Notes under the pieces: model-generated
Told to the model about the DNA's origin: nothing
The model's input: only the letters and a program-made list of their open reading frames with translations
The model's database searches: none
Program-made: the position numbers and the translations under genes
Assembly (NCBI GenBank): GCA_035550055.1
Contig: DASZRO010000035.1
Coordinates: 1-64,000 of the forward strand
Source of the DNA: Mycobacteriales bacterium
GTDB taxonomy: Bacteria > Actinomycetota > Actinomycetes > JAFAQI01
Length of the DNA stretch: 64,000 nt
Direction: 5' to 3'
Part shown: piece by piece, positions 20,147 to 40,749 of the stretch
Numbering within the stretch: the first letter of the stretch is position 1
Layout: each line of letters begins with the position of its first letter

Positions 20147-22789
20147 GTGACCGATGCGGCCGTCGTCGGGGTCGCCGAGCTTGTGGTCGCCCGCGCAGAC
20201 GACGGCGACGTCGGACTGCTGTACGGCGACCAGACGTGGACGTGGCGAGAGGTCGTCGCGGAGGCCAGCACCCGGGCCGCCTGGCTGCTCGCCACCCTCG
20301 ATCCGTCGAGGCCGCTCAACGTCGGACTGCTGCTCGACAACACCCCCGATTTCGTCTTCACGTTGTTCGGCGCCGCGCTCGCGGGAGCGAGCGTCGTCGG
20401 CATCAACTCGACCCGCCGCGGCGCCGAGTTGCAGCGCGACATCGACCACACCGACTGCCAGCTGGTGCTCACCGACCGCAGGCTCGCCGAGCTGCTCGAC
20501 ACGGCGCATCTACTGGTCGAGGACGTACCCTGGCGCGAGCACGCCGGCGCGCCGCTGCCCGCTGAGCTCCCGAACCCGTCGACGTTGCTGCTGCTGATCT
20601 TCACCTCAGGCTCGACGTCCGCGCCGAAGGCGGTCCGAAAGTCGTCCGGCCGGATCGCCGCCGACGCCAATCTCGGGTTCCCCAAGACCGACACCCTCTA
20701 CATCTCGATGCCGCTGATCCACGGCAACGCGTTGTTCGGTGCGCTGTTCCCCGCGCTGGCCGCCGGGGCGCGGATCGCGCTGCGCGACCGGTTCTCGGCC
20801 AGCGGCTGGCTCGACGACGTACGGCGCTACGACGCGAACTTCACCACCACCGTCGGTCGCGCACTGTCCTACCTCCTGGCGACCCCGCCCCGCCCGGAAG
20901 ACCGCGACCACAAGCTGCGCATCGTCCTCGCCCCGGAAAGCTCGCCGCGCGACGCGAGCGACTTCACCGCCCGGTTCGGCGTACCCGTCGTCACCGGCTA
21001 CGGCCAGAGCGAGGGCGGCATCACGTTGCTGCCGAGCCGCCGTCACGGCGCACTCGGCCGCGCCCCCCAAGGCACCGACATCGCGGTGGTCGACCAGGCG
21101 ACGGGCGAGGAGAAGGCAGTCGCCGACCTCGACGAGAACGGTCTGCTGCGCAACCCCGAGCAGGCGATCGGCGAGCTGGTACGCCGCGACTCGACCGGGG
21201 CCTTCGAGGGCTACTGGGCCAACTCCGAGGCGGACCGCAGCCGGCTCCGCGACGGCTGGTACTGGTCGGGAGACCTCGCCTACCGCGACGCCGATGGGGT
21301 GTTCTTCTTCGCCGGCCGCGCCGGCGACTGGATTCGCGTCGACTCGGAGAACTTCGCCTCCGCGCCGGTCGAGCGGATCATCGACCGGTACGACGACGTC
21401 GCCGCCGTCGCGGTCGTAGGGGTAGCCGACGCGCACAACGGCGACCAGGTGCTCGCCGCCATCCAGCTCGTCGACGGCGCCGAGTTCGACCCGGCGACGT
21501 TCGGCAAATGGCTCGCCGCGCAGCCCGATCTCGGCACGAAGTGGCTGCCGAAGTTCGTCCGGGTCTGCCGCACCCTGCCGACGGTGGCCCACGACAAGAC
21601 CGACCGGCAGCGCATCAAGCGCGAAGCGTGGGCGACCAGCGACCCGGTGTGGTGGCGACCGGACCGCGAGGCGTCCTACCAGCGGTTGACCGATGACGAC
21701 CGGACCGCGCTGTACGCCGAGTTCGAGGCGAACGACCGGCTCTCGCTGGCGCCGCAGCGACCTGCCGCGTCGCGCAGCCGGAAGGCGCTCGCCGCCGGCT
21801 TCGCGGCGTGGTTCGCCAGTCGCGACGGCGCCGCCCCGCAGGTCAGCGTCGAGCGACCGCAACCGGGGCTGTCCAGCGACACGCTGTTGCTCGAGGTCGA
21901 CGACGGCGTCGACGCAAGGAAGCGCTACGTCGCCCGGCTGCCACCGCAAGGCCCGGGCCTGTTCCCCGACTACGACCTCGCCCGGCAGGCGCACGTGCAA
22001 CGCGCGGTGCGCGACGCGGGCATCCCGGCGGCGCCGCTCATCGCGATGGAGACCGACCCGACGTGGGTGGGCTCGCCGTTCCTGCTGATGCCACGCGTCG
22101 CCGGTCGGACGCTCACCACCAGCCCGCCGTACCTCACTCACGGCTGGCTCGCTGAGGCGAGCCCGGGCGAGCAGGCCGCGACGTTCCGCCGGTTCGTGGA
22201 CATGCTGGCGCGCATCCACCAGCTCGACCTCGCCGTCGTCGCGGACGCGACGACCGGCGGCGGCCCGGACCTGGCGAGCGTCGTGGACTACTGGGAGGCC
22301 TACCTCGACTGGGCCACCGACGACGCCGACGGCACCGCGATCTACCGGGAGGCGATCGCGTGGTGCCGCGCCAACCTCCCGGCGACCACCCCGCCGACCG
22401 TCGTGTTGTGGGGCGACCCCCAGCTGCAGAACCTGGTCACCGGCGACGACGGCGAGATCGCGGCGGTGCTCGACTGGGAGATGTCCGGGCTCGGCCCGGC
22501 CGAGCTCGACGTCGCGTGGTTCCTGACACTGCACGAGCACGCCGCTGAGACTGCCGGCACCGACCTGCCCGGCTACCCGGGACGCGCGACGATCATCGAC
22601 TGGTACCAGGAAGCCGCCGGGCGCGAGCTCGCCGACCTGCACTTCTACGACGTCCTCGCCAACCTCCGCAGCGGAGCGATCGTCCAGCGCATCGGGGCGA
22701 TCATGGCGATGGCCGGCCACCCCGCGACCTGGACCGCCCACGTGCCACAGCCGCGCCACCTCCCGCACCTGATCGGCGTCGCGCCGTGA
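20147..22789 (+). CDS. acyl-CoA ligase fused to APH-like kinase
   Basis: An 880-residue two-domain protein. Residues 1 to about 530 are an ANL ligase: IFTSGSTSAPKAV (about 150-162), GYGQSEGG near 284, WSGDLAYRD near 373 and the catalytic-Lys region DKTDRQRIKRE near 482. Residues from about 560 to the end are an aminoglycoside-phosphotransferase/choline-kinase fold: a Brenner-type loop WGDPQLQN (about 755-762, Trp replacing the usual His) and LDWEMSGLGP (about 775) as the metal site. Relatives of this kinase domain occur in ACAD10/11, which phosphorylate 4-hydroxyacyl-CoAs, so a hydroxy acid activated and phosphorylated on one chain is a sensible inference. GTG start; stop overlaps the P450 gene (GTGA). 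Confidence 0.85.
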   Translation: MTDAAVVGVAELVVARADDGDVGLLYGDQTWTWREVVAEASTRAAWLLATLDPSRPLNVGLLLDNTPDFVFTLFGAALAGASVVGINSTRRGAELQRDIDHTDCQLVLTDRRLAELLDTAHLLVEDVPWREHAGAPLPAELPNPSTLLLLIFTSGSTSAPKAVRKSSGRIAADANLGFPKTDTLYISMPLIHGNALFGALFPALAAGARIALRDRFSASGWLDDVRRYDANFTTTVGRALSYLLATPPRPEDRDHKLRIVLAPESSPRDASDFTARFGVPVVTGYGQSEGGITLLPSRRHGALGRAPQGTDIAVVDQATGEEKAVADLDENGLLRNPEQAIGELVRRDSTGAFEGYWANSEADRSRLRDGWYWSGDLAYRDADGVFFFAGRAGDWIRVDSENFASAPVERIIDRYDDVAAVAVVGVADAHNGDQVLAAIQLVDGAEFDPATFGKWLAAQPDLGTKWLPKFVRVCRTLPTVAHDKTDRQRIKREAWATSDPVWWRPDREASYQRLTDDDRTALYAEFEANDRLSLAPQRPAASRSRKALAAGFAAWFASRDGAAPQVSVERPQPGLSSDTLLLEVDDGVDARKRYVARLPPQGPGLFPDYDLARQAHVQRAVRDAGIPAAPLIAMETDPTWVGSPFLLMPRVAGRTLTTSPPYLTHGWLAEASPGEQAATFRRFVDMLARIHQLDLAVVADATTGGGPDLASVVDYWEAYLDWATDDADGTAIYREAIAWCRANLPATTPPTVVLWGDPQLQNLVTGDDGEIAAVLDWEMSGLGPAELDVAWFLTLHEHAAETAGTDLPGYPGRATIIDWYQEAAGRELADLHFYDVLANLRSGAIVQRIGAIMAMAGHPATWTAHVPQPRHLPHLIGVAP

Positions 22790-29698: not shown

Positions 29699-30422
29699 GG
29701 CCGCCGTCGACGACGAGCACCTGGCCGGTGATGAACTTCGCCGCGGGTGAGACGAGGAACATCACCGCGTCCGCGATGTCCGCCGGCTCGGCCAGCCGCC
29801 CGAGCGGGGTACGCCGGACGATCTGCTTCAGGTCTTCGGCAGTGAGCCCGTGCGACATCTCGGTGGCGACGTAGCCGGGCGCGACCGAGTTGACGGTGAT
29901 GCCGCGCGAGCCCAGCTCGCGCGCCAGGGCTCGGGTCATGCCGTCGAGTGCGGCCTTCGTTGCGCTGTAGACGGCGAGGCCGCGGTAGCCCGACAGCCCG
30001 ACCACCGACGAGACGTTGACGATCCGACCGTCGCCCTGGCGCAGCATGCGGCGTACGACGGCCTTGGTGACGGTGAGGGTCCCGCGCAGGTTGAGGTCGA
30101 TCACCTGGTCGACGTCGTCGTCGGCCATCGTCGCGAGCACCCCGTCGTTGGCCATCCCGGCGTTGTTGACGAGCACGTCGATCCGGCCGCGCTCGGCGAC
30201 GACCGCATGCACGAAGGCCTTCACGGCCTCCCGGTCGGCCAGGTCGACCGGCGTGTAGGAGAACCGGCCGGCGTTGCCCGCGTCGGACTCCCACCGGTCG
30301 ACCAGATCGGAGCGGCTGCGGCTGCACGTCGACACCGTGTCGCCGGCGGCGAGGAACGCCTCGACCAACCCCGCTCCGAGGCCGCGGCTGCCGCCGGTGA
30401 TCACCACGGACCGACCGCTCAT
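29688..30422 (-). CDS. SDR, FabG-like ketoreductase
   Basis: A 244-residue classical SDR with TGGSRGLG (9-16), NNAG (86-89), the Ser139/Tyr152/Lys156 triad (VSS, VYSATK) and the C-terminal ITGQVLVVDGG, a pattern usual in 3-oxoacyl-ACP reductases. An Arg/Ser-rich loop after beta-2 suggests NADPH. As the third gene of an ACP-ligase-reductase operon, it is likely to act on an ACP- or CoA-bound keto group. Its ATG overlaps the ligase stop (ATGA). Confidence 0.87.
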   Translation of the reverse strand: MSGRSVVITGGSRGLGAGLVEAFLAAGDTVSTCSRSRSDLVDRWESDAGNAGRFSYTPVDLADREAVKAFVHAVVAERGRIDVLVNNAGMANDGVLATMADDDVDQVIDLNLRGTLTVTKAVVRRMLRQGDGRIVNVSSVVGLSGYRGLAVYSATKAALDGMTRALARELGSRGITVNSVAPGYVATEMSHGLTAEDLKQIVRRTPLGRLAEPADIADAVMFLVSPAAKFITGQVLVVDGGLTA

Positions 30423-31750
30423 CCGGTGCCCTCCTGACCGCTGCGTCGAACCTTGGAGTTGGCGATGTCGAGGTTGTCGACCAGCCGGATCCGCCGCGGC
30501 CGCTGGGCCGGCGGCAGTGAGCCGGTCGCCTCGCGGATGGCGGTCTTCAAGGCGTCGGCGTCCGTGCCTTCGGCGGCCACCACGTCGACCGCGACCACGG
30601 CACCGGTCACCGGGTTCGGGTGGCCGAACACCGCGGCGGCGACCACGCCGGGCACGGTCGCGACGGCCGCCTCGATGGGCAGCGGGTGCACCTTCACCCC
30701 ACCGACGTTGATGACCTCCGTCGTACGCCCGACGAACCGGATGCGGTCGCCGTCCACCTCGACCAGGTCGCCGGTCGGGTGCCAGCCGTCGTCGCGGTCC
30801 TCACCGGCGTAGTAGCCCCGCATGCCGATCGCGGACCTGGCGTGCAGCTCGCCGTCGACGATCCGGAACTGCACCGGCGCCTCGGCAGGCCGGTCGAGCA
30901 CGGCCAGCGGCAGGCCCGCACGGCCGTCGGTCACCGACACGCTCGACCCGAACTCCGACGACGCGTAGACCTGCGAGATCTGCGCCCGCGGGAACAGCCG
31001 CCGCAGCCCGGCGAGCAACGCTTCGCCGACCGCCTCACCGCCCAGCGTGATCTGCTCGAGTGCCGGCAGCGGCTCGTCCGGCCGGTCCAGCAGGTGCAGC
31101 GCGAAGCGCCAGAACGTCGGTGTGGCGCTGACGTGGGTGACGCCGTAGGCGCGCATTGCGGCGACGCCATGGCGGGGCTGCGGCGACTCGGGCAGCACGA
31201 GCGTGTCCTGGCTGCCGATGACGTGGAGCAGCACCTGGATTCCGGCGTACTGGTTGAGGTTGTACGCCAGCAGCCAGCGCCGCGGCGAAGCACGGCGCTC
31301 GGGGTGCGCCGCGGCCAGCAGCCGCGACCACTGGTGGCGGGTCCCCTTCGGCCGCCCGGTGGTGCCGGAGGTCAGGATCAGGACCGGGTCACCGGGCGCC
31401 GGTGGCAGCTCCCCGCCGGCGCCGCGGTCGAAGTCCGCGAGCGTCGCGGTCGCGCCGAACACCACGTGGTGCCCGAACTCGGCGGCGAGCAGCTCGGTGT
31501 TGGCGAGATCGCACCGCGGGTAAACGCACGGCTCCACGCCGACCGCGGACGCCGCGATCAGTACGACGATCGTGTCGACCGCGCTCAGCTCGGCCACCCC
31601 GAAGCGCTCCACCCCGGCCCTCGCCAGACCGTCGGCCACGACCCGGCTGCGCGCCGCGACCTCGGCGTAGGTCAGGGTCCCCGCGTCGCTGACGAGCAGT
31701 GGCCGGTCCGGATCGGCCGAACCGACCGCCTCGACCAGGTCGAGCAACAA
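30419..31750 (-). CDS. short adenylate-forming ligase (ACP-loading candidate)
   Basis: A 443-residue ANL protein, about 60 residues shorter than the FadD ligases in this window. Motifs: LILTSGTTGRPKGTRHQW, YASSEFGSS, the hinge PTGDLVEVDGD, INVGGVKVHPLPIEAAV and the C-terminal Lys in IANSKVRRSG. The N-terminal fold is trimmed. The start is TTG (31750 or 31747), one base after the ACP stop, so translation is probably coupled to it. Position next to a free-standing ACP suggests that it adenylates an acid and loads it on the carrier rather than on CoA; that is inference. Confidence 0.82.
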   Translation of the reverse strand: MLLDLVEAVGSADPDRPLLVSDAGTLTYAEVAARSRVVADGLARAGVERFGVAELSAVDTIVVLIAASAVGVEPCVYPRCDLANTELLAAEFGHHVVFGATATLADFDRGAGGELPPAPGDPVLILTSGTTGRPKGTRHQWSRLLAAAHPERRASPRRWLLAYNLNQYAGIQVLLHVIGSQDTLVLPESPQPRHGVAAMRAYGVTHVSATPTFWRFALHLLDRPDEPLPALEQITLGGEAVGEALLAGLRRLFPRAQISQVYASSEFGSSVSVTDGRAGLPLAVLDRPAEAPVQFRIVDGELHARSAIGMRGYYAGEDRDDGWHPTGDLVEVDGDRIRFVGRTTEVINVGGVKVHPLPIEAAVATVPGVVAAAVFGHPNPVTGAVVAVDVVAAEGTDADALKTAIREATGSLPPAQRPRRIRLVDNLDIANSKVRRSGQEGTG

Positions 31751-31751
31751 C

Positions 31752-31988
31752 TCAGTCGAAGAAGCCGACGAGCTCGCCGACCGTCTGGGGCACCAGGCCC
31801 TCGGAGTACGGGTCCTTGCCGAACTCGTCCTCGAGCAGGACCGAGAGCTCGGCCACCTCCAGGGAGTCCATCTCGAGCTCGTCGTAGATGCGCGTGTCGT
31901 CGGTGATGGCCACCGCGACCCCGTCGCCGTCGCGCCGGCTCAACAGGTCCGCGATGGCACGATGGACCGTCTCCTGGGCAGCGGACAC
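31752..31988 (-). CDS. acyl carrier protein
   Basis: A 78-residue carrier protein of normal ACP length. The phosphopantetheine Ser42 sits in EMDSLEVAELSVLLEDEFG, a classic DSL motif at the start of helix II; the chain is acidic. GTG start; a TACGAT -10 box ends six bases upstream, so the mRNA is probably leaderless. It is first in an ACP-ligase-FabG operon, separate from any fatty-acid synthase gene, which points to a dedicated carrier for one pathway. No phosphopantetheinyl transferase is in the window. Confidence 0.9.
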   Translation of the reverse strand: MSAAQETVHRAIADLLSRRDGDGVAVAITDDTRIYDELEMDSLEVAELSVLLEDEFGKDPYSEGLVPQTVGELVGFFD

Positions 31989-31994
31989 GCAGGC

Positions 31995-32014
31995 ATCGTA
32001 CTTGCCGCTAGCGT
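31995..32014. promoter_or_regulatory. divergent leaderless promoter pair
   Basis: Two TANNNT -10 boxes face away from each other, eight bases apart: TACGAT on the minus strand (31995-32000), six bases before the ACP GTG, and TAGCGT on the plus strand (32009-32014), seven bases before the crotonase GTG at 32022. Both predict transcription start at the first codon. The -35 region of each promoter would lie inside the other transcription unit, so the two may compete for RNA polymerase. Confidence 0.5.
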
Positions 32015-32021
32015 CGCGACC

Positions 32022-32729
32022 GTGACCATGGCGGCCGCGGTGCTGCGCGACGTCCTTCGCGTGACGGCGTCGTTGGAGGTCGTCGACGCACTGGTCGTCG
32101 AGTCCCTCGGCTACTCGACGTTGCAGGCGGGACCGGAGCATCGGGAGTGGCTGGCGTCCCGTCAGCCTCGTGAGCAGCTGAGGGTGGCCGACCCCGTCCT
32201 GGTCAGCCGCGACGACGACGTGCTGACCATCCGGCTCAACCGTCCCGAGCGGCGCAACGCGATCGACGCCGCGACCCGCGACGCGCTGCTCGACGCGTTC
32301 GCGATCGCCGACGCCGACCCTGGCCTCGCGGTCGTGCTCTCCGGCGTCGGCCCTGCGTTCTGCGCCGGCGGTGACCTCGACGAGTTCGGCACGGTGAGCG
32401 ACCCGGCGAGCGGTCATCTGATCCGTACGACGCGCAGCCTCGCCGCCGCGATCCACCGGCTGCGCGACCGGACGACCGTGCACGTGCACGGCGGCTGCGC
32501 GGGCGCGGGCGTCGAGCTTCCCGCCTTCGCCGGTCACGTCGTTGCCGACGCGGCCACGACGTTCCTGCTGCCCGAGCTGGCCATGGGGCTGATCCCCGGA
32601 GCCGGGGGGACGGTGAGCCTGCCCCGGCGGATCGGGTCGCGGCGTACCGCCGAGCTCGCCCTGTCCGGTGAGCCGATCGACGCGGCGACGGCACTCGACT
32701 GGGGCCTGATCGATGAGATCACCCGATGA
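32022..32729 (+). CDS. crotonase-family protein, apparently permuted
   Basis: A 235-residue crotonase. The core begins near residue 55 (DDVLTIRLNRPERRNAID) and has the oxyanion segments FCAGGDLDEF and GGCAGAGVELPAF and both hydratase Glu (GVEL and LLPE). The chain stops directly after LDWGLIDEITR, so the normal C-terminal 50-60 residues are missing. Instead, the first 50 residues, with VESLGYSTLQAGPEHREWLASR, resemble that missing C-terminal helix region. The order of parts therefore looks circularly permuted. The GTG at 32022 is supported by a -10 box; an ATG at 32028 is possible. The stop overlaps the CoA-transferase ATG. Confidence 0.8.
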   Translation: MTMAAAVLRDVLRVTASLEVVDALVVESLGYSTLQAGPEHREWLASRQPREQLRVADPVLVSRDDDVLTIRLNRPERRNAIDAATRDALLDAFAIADADPGLAVVLSGVGPAFCAGGDLDEFGTVSDPASGHLIRTTRSLAAAIHRLRDRTTVHVHGGCAGAGVELPAFAGHVVADAATTFLLPELAMGLIPGAGGTVSLPRRIGSRRTAELALSGEPIDAATALDWGLIDEITR

Positions 32730-33910
32730 GCCCGCGCGACGAGACCGACCCCTGCGCAGAGATCCGCCGCTGGGCGTCCAGCGGGGCGATGGCGTTGACC
32801 GGCCATCGCGACGGCCCGCCGCAGCTCGTCGCCGGCGCCCCCGCAACCGCCGTCCGTGAGTCGCTGCGCGCGCTGTCCACGACCGCCACCGCGATGGGCC
32901 TCGACACGACGCGACTGCCGGACGAGCGGCTGATCGGCGAGCGCGCCGCGGCGATGGGCCTGACGCGCGGCGGCCGCGTGTCGCCAGGCGGCGCATGCCG
33001 ACTGCTCGATGCCGCAGACGGCACCGTCGCACTGACCCTGTCACGCCCCGACGACTTCGCGTCGCTGTCCGCTCTGCTGTCTCGAGACATCGACGACGAA
33101 CCGTGGGCGGCCGTCACCGCGTGGTGTCGCGACCACAGCGCCGACGACATCGTCGACCGGGCAACGCTGCTCGGCCTGGCCGCCGGGACGGTCGACCACA
33201 CCCTGCCCGGGACACGACCGCCGCGGGCCGAGCCGCGCCCCGGGACCCGGACCGGCCCGCCGCTGGTCGTCGACCTGTCGTCGCTGTGGGCGGGCCCGCT
33301 GTGTGCCCACCTGCTCTTCTTGGTCGGCGCGCACGTGGTTGACGCGAAAAGCACGACGCGCCCTGATCCGGGCGCCGAAGCCGCTCCCGCGTTTCACGGC
33401 TTGCTCCGCGACGGCACCCGGCGATGGACGACAGACTTCACCACCGCAGCCGGCCGGTCGAAGCTCCGGGACCTGCTGCTGCAAGCCGACATCGTGATCG
33501 AGGCGTCGCGGCCGCGGGCGCTCGAGCAGCTCGGGATCGACGCGGCCGCGATCACCGCCGAGTCGGGCGGCACCTGGGTGTCGATCACGGCGTACGGCCG
33601 GGCGCACAACCGCATCGGCTACGGCGACGACGTCGCGGCGGCGGCGGGTCTGCTCGGCGACGGGCCGGTGTTCGCCGCCGACGCGATCGCCGACCCGCTC
33701 ACGGGCTGCCACGCCGCCGCGGCCGCGCTCGACGCCTGGAGCGCCGGCACGTCGGGTGTCGTCGACATCTCGATGTACGACGTCGTGCGGTCGACGCGTG
33801 CTCCTCTGCCCGATGCGCAGGTCGTCCGCGACGGGGACGGCTGGGCGGTCGATCTCGGTGACCGACTGGTCCCGGTCGCCGAACCTGCAACACGTCAGGC
33901 GAGCAGATGA
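32726..33910 (+). CDS. family III CoA-transferase (CaiB/BaiF), rearranged
   Basis: A 394-residue protein. From about residue 178 it matches the N-terminal half of CaiB/BaiF CoA-transferases: VVDLSSLWAGPLCAHLL, a DIVIEASRPRAL segment, VSITAYGR, and the catalytic Asp in AIADPLTG. The first 170 residues (SSGAMALTG-DGPP, then GRVSPGGACRLLDAADGTVALTLSRPDDF and WAAVTAWCRDHS) look like middle and C-terminal segments of the same family. The usual C-terminal half is absent after residue 370. The order thus seems permuted or assembled from two half-copies. The reaction would be CoA exchange between acids. Overlaps both neighbours by ATGA. Confidence 0.75.
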   Translation: MSPRDETDPCAEIRRWASSGAMALTGHRDGPPQLVAGAPATAVRESLRALSTTATAMGLDTTRLPDERLIGERAAAMGLTRGGRVSPGGACRLLDAADGTVALTLSRPDDFASLSALLSRDIDDEPWAAVTAWCRDHSADDIVDRATLLGLAAGTVDHTLPGTRPPRAEPRPGTRTGPPLVVDLSSLWAGPLCAHLLFLVGAHVVDAKSTTRPDPGAEAAPAFHGLLRDGTRRWTTDFTTAAGRSKLRDLLLQADIVIEASRPRALEQLGIDAAAITAESGGTWVSITAYGRAHNRIGYGDDVAAAAGLLGDGPVFAADAIADPLTGCHAAAAALDAWSAGTSGVVDISMYDVVRSTRAPLPDAQVVRDGDGWAVDLGDRLVPVAEPATRQASR

Positions 33911-35220
33911 CCCTCGTCCGGCACGCGGAGGTCGATCGCAAGATCGTCGACGTCCGCTTCGACGGTCGCGTCGTACGTCAGGTCTCACCCCACCCCCTCA
34001 CCCCGCTCGACGACGAGGAAGTAATCGACGGTGGCCGGTGTGCCTTGCTTCCCGGCCTGCACGACCACCACATCCATCTGCTCGCCACAGCGCGCGCGGC
34101 GACGTCGATCGACGTCAGCAGCGGGGTCGACGCACTCGCCGCCGCGCCCGCGACGGGCGGTTGGCTGCGGGCGGTCGGTGGCACGGACGACCTCGACGCC
34201 GCCGCGCTCGACCGGGTCGTGACCAACCGGCCGGTGCGCGTCCAGCACCACAGCGGCGCGATGTGGGTGCTCAACTCGGCGGGCCTGGCCGCGGTCGGCT
34301 CCGCGGAGGCAGCCGAGGACGGCATCGAACGTGACGCGTCCGGGTCGCCGACCGGCCGGTTGTGGCGGCTCGACGACTGGCTCGGCTCGCGGGTCGACGA
34401 CGATCCGCCCGACCTCGGTCCGCTCGGGCGCCGGCTGTCGGACCACGGGATCACCGGGGTCACCGACGCGACCCCTCACCTGGGTGCGGGGGCCGAGCTC
34501 ATCGCAGCGGCGACGCTGCCGCAACGCATCCACTTCCTCGCCGCCGACGCTCCTGCATGGGGCGTCACCGGGCCACGCAAGATCGTGCTCGAAGACCACG
34601 ATTTGCCGTCGTACACCGAGCTGCGGGAGACCATCGCGGACGCCCGCGTGCTCGGCCGGGCGGTCGCGGTGCACTGCGTCACCCGCGAGTCGCTGCTGTT
34701 GCTGCTTGCGGTGCTCGACGAGATCGGCGCCGTCACCGGCGATCGGATCGAGCATGCGTCGATCGCTGATGCCACCACCGTCGAGCGGATCGCGAGGCTC
34801 GGGGTCGCGGTCGTCACCCAGCCCGGATTCATCTGCCAGCGAGGCGATCGCTATCTCGCCGACGTCCCCGCCGACGACCTGCCCGACCTCTACCGCTACT
34901 CGTCGCTGGTCGAGGCGAAGGCGTGCGTCGTACCCAGCAGCGACGCGCCTTACGGTCCGCTGGATCCCTGGACCATCATGCGAGCGGCACGCGACCGCCG
35001 CAGCGAGAGCGGCGCCCGGGTCAACGTGAAGGAGTGGGTCGCGGCGGCGATGGTGCTCGACGGCTACCTGCGTCACCCGGATGCGCTTCACGCGCCACGG
35101 CGGCGGATCACGCCGGGCGCGCCGTCCGATCTGATCCTGCTGCAGCTACCGCTCGCCGAGGCCCTCGACGACCCACGCGCCGAGCTGGTCCGGCGTACCT
35201 GGCACGCCCGTCACCGGTAG
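33907..35220 (+). CDS. amidohydrolase-family metal-dependent hydrolase
   Basis: A 437-residue TIM-barrel amidohydrolase of the Amidohydro_3 type. Metal-site residues visible: HDHHIH after strand 1, His in AVHCVTRES, His in IEHASIAD and Asp in SSDAPYG; a short N-terminal beta-sandwich precedes the barrel and GAPSDLILL closes it. Relatives hydrolyse amide or cyclic-amide bonds, N-acyl groups or aromatic ring amides, and some hydrate double bonds. Third gene after the crotonase and CoA-transferase, with an ATGA overlap; no further gene belongs to this operon. Confidence 0.82.
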   Translation: MTLVRHAEVDRKIVDVRFDGRVVRQVSPHPLTPLDDEEVIDGGRCALLPGLHDHHIHLLATARAATSIDVSSGVDALAAAPATGGWLRAVGGTDDLDAAALDRVVTNRPVRVQHHSGAMWVLNSAGLAAVGSAEAAEDGIERDASGSPTGRLWRLDDWLGSRVDDDPPDLGPLGRRLSDHGITGVTDATPHLGAGAELIAAATLPQRIHFLAADAPAWGVTGPRKIVLEDHDLPSYTELRETIADARVLGRAVAVHCVTRESLLLLLAVLDEIGAVTGDRIEHASIADATTVERIARLGVAVVTQPGFICQRGDRYLADVPADDLPDLYRYSSLVEAKACVVPSSDAPYGPLDPWTIMRAARDRRSESGARVNVKEWVAAAMVLDGYLRHPDALHAPRRRITPGAPSDLILLQLPLAEALDDPRAELVRRTWHARHR

Positions 35221-35276: not shown

Positions 35277-35305
35277 TTGATCTTGTCGCCGCGTGCGGCT
35301 ATCAT
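35277..35305 (+). promoter_or_regulatory. sigma70-type promoter of HNH gene
   Basis: TTGATC (35277-35282) and TATCAT (35300-35305) are separated by 17 bases, the ideal spacing for a housekeeping promoter. Transcription should begin near 35312, inside the SOS box that directly follows the -10 box. Confidence 0.65.
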
Positions 35306-35321
35306 TCGAACATACGTTCGA
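35306..35321. promoter_or_regulatory. SOS box (LexA operator)
   Basis: TCGAACATACGTTCGA is an exact match to the actinobacterial LexA site TCGAAC-N4-GTTCGA. It touches the -10 box and covers the predicted transcription start, so LexA would repress the following gene until DNA damage. Confidence 0.85.
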
Positions 35322-35334
35322 CTATGGGGAGACC

Positions 35335-36516
35335 GTGCTCGACCAGACGACGCAAGTCCTCATGGAGGACGTCGCGCGCCTGGTCGCACAAGACCCGCAC
35401 GACCTGCCCGACTCACTGCTGTTGGCCTCCACCGAGGCGCTGCTGACCGCCCGCCGTCGCCTGGACGGGGTGCTGGCGCGTCGGCTTCAGGTGATGGACA
35501 CCCGGCAGGCCACCACGACGGAGTGTGGCTGCTCGACCCGTGCCTGGCTGGTCGAAGAACAGCAGCTGTCGCAGACGGACGCCTGCGCCCGGTTGGCGGT
35601 CGCGCGCTCGTACCCAACCCGGCCGGCGATCGTAGAAGCGATGCTCGCCGGCGAAGCGACCCAGGACCAGGCGAAAGTCATCACGGCGTTCCTGCCCAAA
35701 CTGCCTTCGGCGCAGACTCGGGACCACGCCGAGAAAGAGCTCCTCGACCTGACCCGCTACGCCGACCCCACCCTGATGACCCGGGGGTTGCGCGAGCTTG
35801 CCGACAAGCTGTGCCTCAACGAGACAGCCGAGGAGCGCGCGGTGCGGCGTTACGAAGGCCGCTACCTGACCTTCACCGACACCATCGAGGAAATGGTCCG
35901 CATCGACGGGATGCTCGACCGGACCGGCGCCGCCATCCTGCGCAAAGCGCTCTACCCGCTGTCGGCCAAAGCCGGGCAGGTCGACGAGCGCACCCCGACC
36001 CAACGCAACGCCGACGCCCTCGTCGAGCTCGCCACCCTCGCCATGAAAGCCGGCGAGCTGCCCGACACCGCCGGCGAACCCACCCAGGTGACCGTGCTCA
36101 CCCACCTCGCCGACCTGACCGCCCGCCTCGAGGCCGGCGACACCTGCCACGCGACGCTCGAAGACGTCCCGATCACCCCGAACACCGCCCGGATGCTCGC
36201 CTGCGACGCCGGCATCATCCCGGCAGTGCTCGGAGGAGCTTCCGAAATCCTGGACCTCGGCCGATCCACCCGGACCTGGAGCCGAGCACAACGCCGAGCC
36301 GCGAAGATCCGCGCGAACGGGCACTGCGAATCACCCAAATGCCAGACCGCCATCGTCCGATGCGACCTCCACCACGAGGACTACTGGGAGCACGGCGGTC
36401 ACACCAACCTCAACAAGGCCATCTACCTGTGCCCCTACCACCACTGGCTCGAACACCACACCGACTGGCATCACACCCGAAACAAAGACGGCACCGTCGA
36501 GCTTCGAAGAACCTGA
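35335..36516 (+). CDS. DUF222/HNH endonuclease-like protein (13E12 type)
   Basis: A 393-residue protein with an N-terminal DUF222 helical domain and a C-terminal HNH nuclease motif: CESPKCQTAIVRCDLHHEDYW (two Cys and the catalytic HH), NLNKAIYLCPYHHWLEHH. This is the architecture of the 13E12 repeat family of mycobacteria, several members of which are LexA-regulated. The role is unknown; a DNA-damage-induced nuclease is inferred. The GTG at 35335, with GGGGAG upstream, lies after the SOS box; an earlier GTG at 35293 would put the promoter and operator inside the coding region. It stands alone and is not linked to transposase genes. Confidence 0.87.
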   Translation: MLDQTTQVLMEDVARLVAQDPHDLPDSLLLASTEALLTARRRLDGVLARRLQVMDTRQATTTECGCSTRAWLVEEQQLSQTDACARLAVARSYPTRPAIVEAMLAGEATQDQAKVITAFLPKLPSAQTRDHAEKELLDLTRYADPTLMTRGLRELADKLCLNETAEERAVRRYEGRYLTFTDTIEEMVRIDGMLDRTGAAILRKALYPLSAKAGQVDERTPTQRNADALVELATLAMKAGELPDTAGEPTQVTVLTHLADLTARLEAGDTCHATLEDVPITPNTARMLACDAGIIPAVLGGASEILDLGRSTRTWSRAQRRAAKIRANGHCESPKCQTAIVRCDLHHEDYWEHGGHTNLNKAIYLCPYHHWLEHHTDWHHTRNKDGTVELRRT

Positions 36517-37748: not shown

Positions 37749-38545
37749 GCGTCCACCACCGCATCCTCGTCCAGGTCGGCGCCGAGATAGGCCGCTCGTA
37801 CGACGGGATCCTGGCGGACCTGCGCGGGCGTGCCTTGCGCGATCATCCGGCCGAAGTCGAGCACGTAGATCTGGCTCGACAGCGCCATGACCAGCTCGAT
37901 GTCGTGCTCGACCAGCAGGATGGTCAGCCCGAGGTCGGCCAGCGAAGCGAGCACGGAGTGCAGCCGCTCGGTCTCGGCGTTGGACAGGCCGCTGGCCGGC
38001 TCGTCGAGCAGCAACACCTTGGGTTCGGTGCACAACGCCCGGGCGAGCTCGACCAGCCGCGACAACCCGGTCGGCAGCGAGCCGGCGGGCCGATCGGCGA
38101 GATCGGCGATCCCCACCAGGTCCATGGCCTCGCGCACTCTGCGCAACACCGCCGGGTTGTCCGGGTGGCGCAGCGAGAACAGGTCGCGCCAGATGTGCTG
38201 GCTGGCCCGGCCCTCGACGGCGACCTGGAGGTTCTCGGCGACCGACAGTCCGGAGAACAGCTCGAGGATCTGGAACGTCCGTGCCATGCCGGCCCGGGCG
38301 CGCTTGTCCGGCGTCATGCCCTTGAGGCTTCGGCCGTCGAGATAGGCAGCGCCGCCGTCCGGGTTCAGGATCCCGCTGATCGCGTGGAACATCGTCGTCT
38401 TGCCGGCGCCGTTCGGCCCGATCAGCGAGGTGACCTGGCCCGGGTGCGCGGTGAGGCTCGCGTCGTTGACCGCGACGAAGCCGCCGAAGCGCACCGTGAT
38501 GTCACGCGCTTCGAGGACCGCGCCGCGCAGGTCGTTGCCGCTCAC
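37745..38545 (-). CDS. livG: branched-chain-type ABC importer ATPase LivG
   Basis: A 266-residue ATPase: Walker A LIGPNGAGKTTM, signature region LPTGLSRLVELARAL (Gly-Gln replaced, as usual in LivG), Walker B VLLLDEPASGL, and the H-loop in LVEHDIELVMAL. The C-terminal QDPVVRAAYLGAD tail is the characteristic LivG ending. GTG start within the stop of the permease gene. Partner of LivF. Confidence 0.92.
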   Translation of the reverse strand: MSGNDLRGAVLEARDITVRFGGFVAVNDASLTAHPGQVTSLIGPNGAGKTTMFHAISGILNPDGGAAYLDGRSLKGMTPDKRARAGMARTFQILELFSGLSVAENLQVAVEGRASQHIWRDLFSLRHPDNPAVLRRVREAMDLVGIADLADRPAGSLPTGLSRLVELARALCTEPKVLLLDEPASGLSNAETERLHSVLASLADLGLTILLVEHDIELVMALSSQIYVLDFGRMIAQGTPAQVRQDPVVRAAYLGADLDEDAVVDA

Positions 38546-40749
38546 GAGTCACCCCCTGCGAGCAGACGCTCGGCGAACGCCGAGGGCTGCAGGTCGTGGC
38601 CCGGTGGCGGCGCGTGCTCGACCGCGGCCCGTCGCGCCGCGAACGCCGCGAGGCTCCGCTGCGCCGGCGACGGGCCGACGCCGTCGCCCCGGACGTAGCG
38701 CAGCACCGTTCCGATCAGACCGCCCGGCAGGTAGCCGACGAGGACGGCGATGCCACCGATCACGATCAGGCTCGACCCGGTCTTGCCCGTGGCGACGTCG
38801 ACCGCGACGTAGAGCGTCGCGGCGAGGATCGCGCTGGACCGGTAGGACAGCCCGAAGACGACGACCGCGCCGAACCAGTAGAGGCTGAACAGCGGGGAGA
38901 ACGGACCGTCCGGGTTGACGTTGAGGGTCCCCTGCTGCTGCACGATCAGGCTGCCGCCGATCGCGGCGATGAAAGCGCTGGCACCGAAGATCAGCAGCTT
39001 GTAGCGGCGCAGCGAGATGCCGACGCTGACCGCGCCTCGCTCGCTGTCGCGCATCGCGCCGAGCACCCGGCCGAGCGAGCCGCTGCGCAGGTTGCGGACG
39101 AGCAGCAGCACGAGGCCGAGCACGGCGAGCTCGTAGTACAGGAACGTCCGGTCGCCCGACAGCGACCAGCCGAACAGGTTCGGCCGGTTGCTGTTGCGCC
39201 CGCTCGTCCAGCTCGGGTTCTGGAAGATGAACGCGTCCACGCACTGCGCGAACGCCAACGTGATGAGGCCGAGGATCAGGCCGCGACGGCGCAACGCCGG
39301 GTAGCCGACGATCACGCCGATCGGGATCACGACGAGCGCGCCCACGATCATGGCGAGGATCACCGGGAAGTGCGGAATGGCGGTGTTGTACGGCAACGGC
39401 AACAGGCCGTTCTGCAACCGCGCCGTGATGTAGGCGCCGAGGCCGGCGAACGCGGCGGAGGCCAGCGACAGATGGCCGCTGAAACCGGTGATGGCCACGA
39501 TCGAAAGGAACGCCACCGAGTAGGCGACGACCTGCTGGGCGGTGACCAGGTTCTGCCCCGACAGCAACGCCGGTACGACGATCGCCACCAGCCCGGCGAC
39601 CAGCACGCCTTGCAGGGTCGCCGCGGTGCTGCGCCGGCCGATCCGGCTGAACGTCGCCGTCACGACACCCGCGGTGCCGCCGCTACCGGACTCGTCGAGG
39701 TTGCGGTAGATCAGCAGGAACACCACGGTGGTGAGCACCGGGATCTGGACGACGATGTCGGAGTTGACGCCGGGCAGCCAGTTCAGCCAGTGGGGGTAGT
39801 GCGGACTGACCAACGCCGAGCCGAGGCTGCCGACCAGCCCGAGGCCGAGGCCCGCCGCGACCGCCGTACCGATGTTGCGCAGCTTCGCGACCACCGCGAC
39901 GCCGATGATCTGCAGCACCTGGAGCGCGAGCGCGCCGTTCTGCAGGCCGACGGTGGGCGAGTCCAGCACCCCGGCGAGCGAAGCGAAGCCCGCGGCGATC
40001 GCCCACGACAGCATCGAGATCCGGTTGGCGTTGACGACGAAGAGCTCGGCCAGCTCGCGCCGGTCGACGACGGCACGCACCTGCCGGCCGAGCCGGGTGA
40101 AACGGAAGAGCAGGAGCAGGCCGCCGGCTGCGCCGGCGATCATCGCGACGTTGCCGACGACGGTCCACGACACGGACACCGCGCTGTTGCCGCTGCCGAT
40201 CTGGAACGCCTGACCGAGGGAGAAGACGTTCTTCGGCTGGTAGCTGTTCTCGCCGTAGATGACCCCGCCGATGCCGAGCAGCAGGATCAGTACGCCGAGG
40301 TTCGCGACGAGCTTCTCCGCTGTCCCCGCCGACCGGCGTTCCAGCGGCCGGAACACGATCAGGTCCACCAGCGTGCCGATCGCCGGACCGATCAGCAGGA
40401 CGACCATCAGCAGCGACAGCCAGACCGGAATGCCGTCGTGGCTGGTGAACTCGTACATGATGAACGCGCAGGCGGTCGCAATGCCGGCGAACGCGAAGTT
40501 GAACACCCCGGTCGCTCGGTAGGCGACGACGAGGCCGGTCCCACCGAGGGCGGCAACCGCGCCGATCGACAGGCCGGCGACGATCTGCTGGCCGTAGAAA
40601 GACCAGTCGTTCGGGTCGGCGGCGTAGACCCAGAGCAGGAACAGCACCGCGACCGGCACGCCCCAGTGACGCAGCCGCGCCGGGACGGCGGCGGGCAGCC
40701 GGCTGGCCGACGGACCGGCGGCGCCTGCCAGCCGTGGGTCGAGGGTCAT
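38542..40749 (-). CDS. fused LivH-LivM permease
   Basis: A 735-residue protein joining both membrane subunits of a LIV-type importer. The first half is LivH-like, with GGTGLVVAYRATGVFNFAFAG and about eight hydrophobic segments. The second half, from about residue 370 (GLVAIVVPALLSGQNLVTAQQV), is LivM-like, with SVAFLSIVAITGFSGHLSLASAAFAGLGAY and RDSERGAVSVGISLRRYKLLIF, the loop that contacts the ATPase. A charged linker joins them. The fusion fixes a 1:1 ratio. The tail, after the last helix, is about 50 residues of cytoplasmic extension. Its stop overlaps LivG's start; the zinc-motif membrane gene is upstream. Confidence 0.92.
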   Translation of the reverse strand: MTLDPRLAGAAGPSASRLPAAVPARLRHWGVPVAVLFLLWVYAADPNDWSFYGQQIVAGLSIGAVAALGGTGLVVAYRATGVFNFAFAGIATACAFIMYEFTSHDGIPVWLSLLMVVLLIGPAIGTLVDLIVFRPLERRSAGTAEKLVANLGVLILLLGIGGVIYGENSYQPKNVFSLGQAFQIGSGNSAVSVSWTVVGNVAMIAGAAGGLLLLFRFTRLGRQVRAVVDRRELAELFVVNANRISMLSWAIAAGFASLAGVLDSPTVGLQNGALALQVLQIIGVAVVAKLRNIGTAVAAGLGLGLVGSLGSALVSPHYPHWLNWLPGVNSDIVVQIPVLTTVVFLLIYRNLDESGSGGTAGVVTATFSRIGRRSTAATLQGVLVAGLVAIVVPALLSGQNLVTAQQVVAYSVAFLSIVAITGFSGHLSLASAAFAGLGAYITARLQNGLLPLPYNTAIPHFPVILAMIVGALVVIPIGVIVGYPALRRRGLILGLITLAFAQCVDAFIFQNPSWTSGRNSNRPNLFGWSLSGDRTFLYYELAVLGLVLLLVRNLRSGSLGRVLGAMRDSERGAVSVGISLRRYKLLIFGASAFIAAIGGSLIVQQQGTLNVNPDGPFSPLFSLYWFGAVVVFGLSYRSSAILAATLYVAVDVATGKTGSSLIVIGGIAVLVGYLPGGLIGTVLRYVRGDGVGPSPAQRSLAAFAARRAAVEHAPPPGHDLQPSAFAERLLAGGDS

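Follow-up and report, generated by a model that had tools for sequence, protein, structure and literature searches.

A family III CoA-transferase with its small domain relocated to the N-terminus, encoded beside a similarly rearranged crotonase in actinobacteria

In a 64,000-nucleotide stretch of contig DASZRO010000035.1 (hereafter, the window), a crotonase, a family III CoA-transferase and an amidohydrolase family protein are encoded one after another on the forward strand (Table 1). The crotonase and transferase ORFs overlap by 4 bases, as do the transferase and amidohydrolase ORFs, and the placing of the first two enzymes in one gene cluster by the initial annotation was borne out. That annotation, which was made from the sequence alone, had also proposed that the transferase carries exchanged halves and that the crotonase upstream shows the same kind of rearrangement; all of the transferase motifs that it quoted were found. 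The real start of the crotonase probably lies further in than listed, at GTG 32025 or ATG 32031, since the listed stretch 31962-31991 runs into the start of an acyl carrier protein gene on the opposite strand. Upstream of the transferase ATG the frame is open for 3 more codons only, and hence, a hidden N-terminal Rossmann domain ahead of this ORF is excluded.

Table 1. Coordinates in the window of the three-gene module, its domains and surrounding genes
Feature	Position	Strand	Basis or remark
880-aa open frame	20147-22789	+	AMP-binding acyl-CoA ligase first; end resembles an aminoglycoside-phosphotransferase-type kinase (by eye)
443-aa AMP-binding ligase, shortened N-terminal region	30419-31750	-	Weak match to 2-oxoglutaryl-ACP ligase AmcH; divergent beside the trio
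Small acyl carrier protein	31752-31991	-	Divergent beside the trio
Rearranged crotonase (enoyl-CoA hydratase/isomerase) ORF	31962-32729	+	255 aa as listed; Pfam ECH_1 on residues 85-253 (profile positions 4-173 of 251)
Equivalent of the C-terminal helical domain, ahead of the crotonase core	32031-32171	+	hhalign to canonical crotonase 193-266 of 271
Crotonase core, containing the FCAGGDL oxyanion-hole segment, E185 and E205	32196-32720	+	NCBIfam EchA19 79-253
Rearranged family III CoA-transferase (P0001)	32726-33910	+	394 aa, ATG start
Front segment, including the part equivalent to canonical alpha6-alpha8 and its surroundings (SGAMALTG..DGPP; no Asp at the catalytic position)	32774-33193	+	hhalign 17-156 to canonical 170-342
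Small domain holding the candidate glycine loop (SPGG), part of the front segment (span of the whole segment given)	32774-33193	+	Same hhalign match
Pro/Arg-rich linker, length highly variable among homologues	33194-33247	+	Homologue alignments
Rossmann half, canonical 30-231	33248-33793	+	hhalign 175-356; Pfam 181-357
Catalytic Asp D323 codon, in IADPLTG	33692-33694	+	Homologue alignment
Amidohydrolase family protein (Amidohydro_3), third module member	33907-35220	+	Pfam
407-aa protein, HNH-like C-terminus (CESPKCQT...CDLHHEDYWEHGGHTN)	35293-36516	+	Downstream of the amidohydrolase; probably actinobacterial DUF222/HNH type (by eye)
735-aa protein	38542-40749	-	UrtB match 54-309, UrtC match 396-680; a single-chain fusion of two branched-chain/urea-type ABC permeases

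Pfam and NCBIfam recognised a family III CoA-transferase solely in residues ~180-365 of the transferase, and did so as the N-terminal half of the family. The Pfam match to CoA_transf_3 (77 bits; cut-off 23) was restricted to residues 181-357 and corresponded to profile positions 6-202 of 366, which places the N-terminal half of the family at the C-terminal end of the protein. Four homologues showed a like placement of this profile, and matches to PDB sequences were likewise confined to the rear, N-terminal-half-type part. Because the front part was unseen by Pfam, we built our own profiles from homologues, 15 at first and later ~40. Profile-profile comparison with hhalign aligned front residues 17-156/167 with canonical residues 170-342/353 of 421 (E 4e-8, improving to 3e-9 once more sequences were added to the profile) and rear residues 175-356 with canonical residues 30-231 (E 8e-38). 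The best of 30 column-shuffled front-segment profiles reached only E 0.14, which rules out an unrelated first domain, and a control comparison of the front-segment profile with crotonases gave no match. We conclude that the changed order proposed in the initial annotation is real and far beyond chance.

Read from its sequence, the chain runs small domain, linker, Rossmann half and tail, with one domain relocated. The small domain stands ahead of the Rossmann half in every homologue examined, and simple tandem half-copies were not seen among them; the same rearranged order was seen instead. The transferase possesses a Rossmann half that matches the family profile, a catalytic Asp within (A/G)D-x-x-(T/A)G and a small domain, the strand/helix order of which also appears in the predicted model; the ring topology, in which the small domain is inserted between the Rossmann half and the C-terminal tail, was not found. 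The Asp that had been assigned to IADPLTG is D323; this position is Asp in 22 of 22 aligned family members, and the catalytic Asp also occurs in all 7 second copies of tandem double proteins (see below) and in 9 of 10 single ones. Front and rear segments overlap on ~60 canonical residues (170-231), so that both hold the surroundings of the catalytic loop; the Asp is in the rear copy only, and the front segment includes helices past the catalytic position without it. A strict motif recovers the canonical C-terminal tail (...LGADTDAVLRELG; ...G.ADTDAVLRELG) at the end of 23 of 35 homologues, and reading by eye adds others; the window's own transferase no longer has it. Because the segments overlap and many homologues retain the tail at the C-terminus, a clean circular permutation is ruled out: the order has changed, as was claimed, but the halves have not simply been exchanged. 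Direct comparison of the N-part with the C-part of the transferase gave no internal repeat (Prob 0.6). Monomer models were of low confidence (pLDDT 61 and 67), because the alignments behind them had three sequences, and confirmed the fold class, nothing beyond that.

The sequence of the neighbouring crotonase also supports a rearrangement, in agreement with the original proposal. The complete core (residues 79-253) contains the oxyanion-hole segment and the two acidic residues E185 and E205, which are spaced by 20 and invariant in alignments, and nothing follows it; the ORF stops where the C-terminal helical domain would start, and no such domain was found after the core. The first ~70 residues, together with the corresponding parts of homologues, gave a weak match in the right place to canonical crotonase residues 193-266 of 271 (E 0.003) and no match to CoA-transferase controls. 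Compared with EchA8 and PaaF of the crotonase superfamily, with which the core, the oxyanion-hole segment and both Glu residues are shared, the window crotonase thus has its C-terminal helical domain ahead of the core. The segment before the core is longer in most homologues. Two of these (L057 6828-7877 and L083 10822-11928) have ~90 extra N-terminal residues that by eye resemble a decayed crotonase core; this ~90-residue extension is absent from the window's genus.

The rearranged transferase was present in 56 and the rearranged crotonase in 59 of the 297 genomes of the class, and 55 carried both (Fisher p 7e-54, shared ancestry being ignored). The amidohydrolase was present in 44 of the same 297 genomes, 43 of which also carried the rearranged transferase (Fisher p 5e-39, shared ancestry again being ignored). 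Among 60 relatives, strong matches to the rearranged transferase and crotonase were confined to exactly the same 14 genomes. The three genes are neighbours in many genomes, often with a divergent crotonase gene; some genomes have the crotonase at a distance of 24-50 kb. A contig search with one query protein named Actinomadura madurae and, from the window's own genus, a Frankiaceae MAG among the carriers. In a 199-genome sample of the phylum, 3 genomes had the rearranged order outside the class. Plasmids carrying the rearranged transferase were found in Rhodococcus, Streptomyces, Sphingobium and Sphingomonas, with the whole trio on Rhodococcus plasmids. Because the order recurs in more than 50 genomes and on plasmids of other taxa, a frameshift or assembly artefact of a single genome is ruled out. 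Many actinobacteria have inherited the rearranged transferase and crotonase jointly, and the changed order is an ancient, conserved character of the family within a fixed three-gene module.

The genes around the trio in the window and in a sister genome encode an acyl-CoA ligase, a Rieske oxygenase, a P450 and a branched-chain-type ABC transporter, in addition to a thiolase-like protein near the trio in the window. Neighbours in other genomes include flavoproteins similar to KstD and 4-oxocyclohexanecarboxylate dehydrogenase, as well as acyl-CoA dehydrogenases. In two genomes of one group (L030 and L032, group f5), the crotonase gene adjoins an acyl-CoA ligase gene, and the ligase of L030 is FadD4 by curated score. 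Our best guess is that the trio serves in the catabolism of a cyclic (aromatic or alicyclic) acid, where the transferase, rearranged crotonase and amidohydrolase would process an acyl-CoA.

Tandem duplication with subsequent reciprocal loss would, in our view, best account for the relocation of the small domain. The ancestor would have been a head-to-tail duplicated protein, N1-C1-N2-C2, and loss of Rossmann domain N1 and small domain C2 would have left C1-N2-tail. Tandem double CaiB/BaiF proteins (750-870 aa; L039-L043, L046 and L051) do occur in the same genomes as the rearranged transferase; they share with it the FWAGP and ES-RPDG motifs of their second Rossmann domain, and keep the order N1-C1-N2-C2, whereas the transferase has C1-N2-tail only. 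The catalytic position is Glu instead of Asp in the first copy of 6 of these 7 proteins and Asp in the second copy of all 7. With the Asp mostly gone from the first copy, the dead site of the doubles is the one built by the parts missing in the rearranged transferase. A tree of Rossmann domains joined the rearranged family to the second copies and to one of the groups of singles, and separated it from the first copies (0.999); in a tree of small domains, the rearranged family branched alone, with no clear placement relative to the first copies of the doubles. Possible vestiges of a lost Rossmann domain at some N-termini were weak: compared with 200 shuffles, and with no multiple-test correction, 4 of 8 ranked in the top 1-4%.

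Described family III members are dimers with inter-subunit active sites, the chains of which form interlocked rings (for the mechanism of the family, see PMC9813914). The window transferase shares with Frc, YfdW, Rv3272 and Mct the Rossmann half with its catalytic Asp and the small-domain fold, with matches to E 1e-24. Its small domain is N-terminal, whereas theirs is inserted between the Rossmann half and the C-tail, its two segments overlap by ~60 residues, and a closed ring is impossible from connectivity alone. The benzylsuccinate CoA-transferase BbsEF (9fn0) likewise has the family III fold; it consists of two separate chains, BbsE and BbsF, of ordinary order, in contrast to the one rearranged chain described here. 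The rearranged chain would carry exactly the two parts of one active site, in addition to both sets of interface helices (alpha7/alpha8). From the presence of one small domain, one Rossmann domain, a single linker and two interface-helix sets, we infer that one former pseudo-dimer site may have come to lie on one chain. D323 from the rear segment and the glycine loop from the front segment would form this site, and such a single-chain, non-threaded transferase would use the usual aspartyl-CoA mechanism. As read from its sequence, the connectivity argues against threading into an interlocked dimer, and the transferase may therefore be a single-chain, non-interlocked enzyme. We lean, with modest confidence, towards the view that it represents an old conserved subfamily that moved its small domain to the N-terminus, arose from N1-C1-N2-C2 by loss and acts as a single-chain, non-threaded enzyme in a cyclic-acid route. 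More tentatively, and short of thinking it probable, we propose that this natural non-interlocked enzyme is one active-site 'half' of a (pseudo)dimer, and that it and the crotonase beside it, with its like relocation, moved in parallel from inter-subunit to intra-chain architecture by duplication and reciprocal loss.

The rearrangement could also be mechanically neutral: two chains would pair in the usual way, each placing its N-terminal small domain against the Rossmann domain of the other by domain swapping, and connectivity alone would set the protein apart from an ordinary family III enzyme. The flexible linkers, which range from 20 to more than 60 aa across homologues, would permit an ordinary swap of this kind, and the described members are, as noted, dimers with inter-subunit sites; nevertheless, a single chain already has the two halves of a site, and the interface helices are present in it twice; we regard such a dimer as rather unlikely. 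A change of catalytic role seems less likely still. The fold is common to racemases, and both profile and model match them, so that the protein might be a racemase, epimerase or other non-transferase member of the superfamily, similar to alpha-methylacyl-CoA racemase, and might act jointly with the crotonase, the substrates being branched or cyclic acyl-CoAs. The catalytic Asp is present in racemases too. Racemases match far more weakly than transferases do (1.7e-9 versus 1e-24), however, and the family alignments have G-Y/F-G-D-D where the catalytic His of racemases (H126, in the GHD motif) is expected; this His was not found there. A racemase or its like is accordingly improbable.

It is conceivable that the pair lost catalysis on rearrangement and was kept as a structural scaffold, given that the Asp is gone from the front copy of the active-site region and that deletions have occurred. 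To this we attach hardly any weight, as the catalytic Asp is found in 22 of 22 sequences, both crotonase Glu residues are invariant, and conservation is strong across large distances together with co-inheritance of the three genes.

No report of a permuted family III CoA-transferase or a permuted crotonase was found in the literature searched, nor any relevant report of the three-gene module, and a sequence search found no solved structure with the rearranged order for either enzyme. The rearrangement has been hidden because standard annotation reads only 'CoA transferase' or 'enoyl-CoA hydratase/isomerase family protein'. The rearranged transferase and crotonase are new, conserved, co-inherited versions of two known enzyme families. 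A natural family that is unable to close the ring offers a direct test of how interlocking evolved and whether catalysis needs it, and two adjacent, co-inherited enzymes with like relocations provide a clear example of tandem duplication followed by reciprocal loss of domains. The relocation suggests a route from an enzyme of two interlocked chains to a single-chain enzyme.
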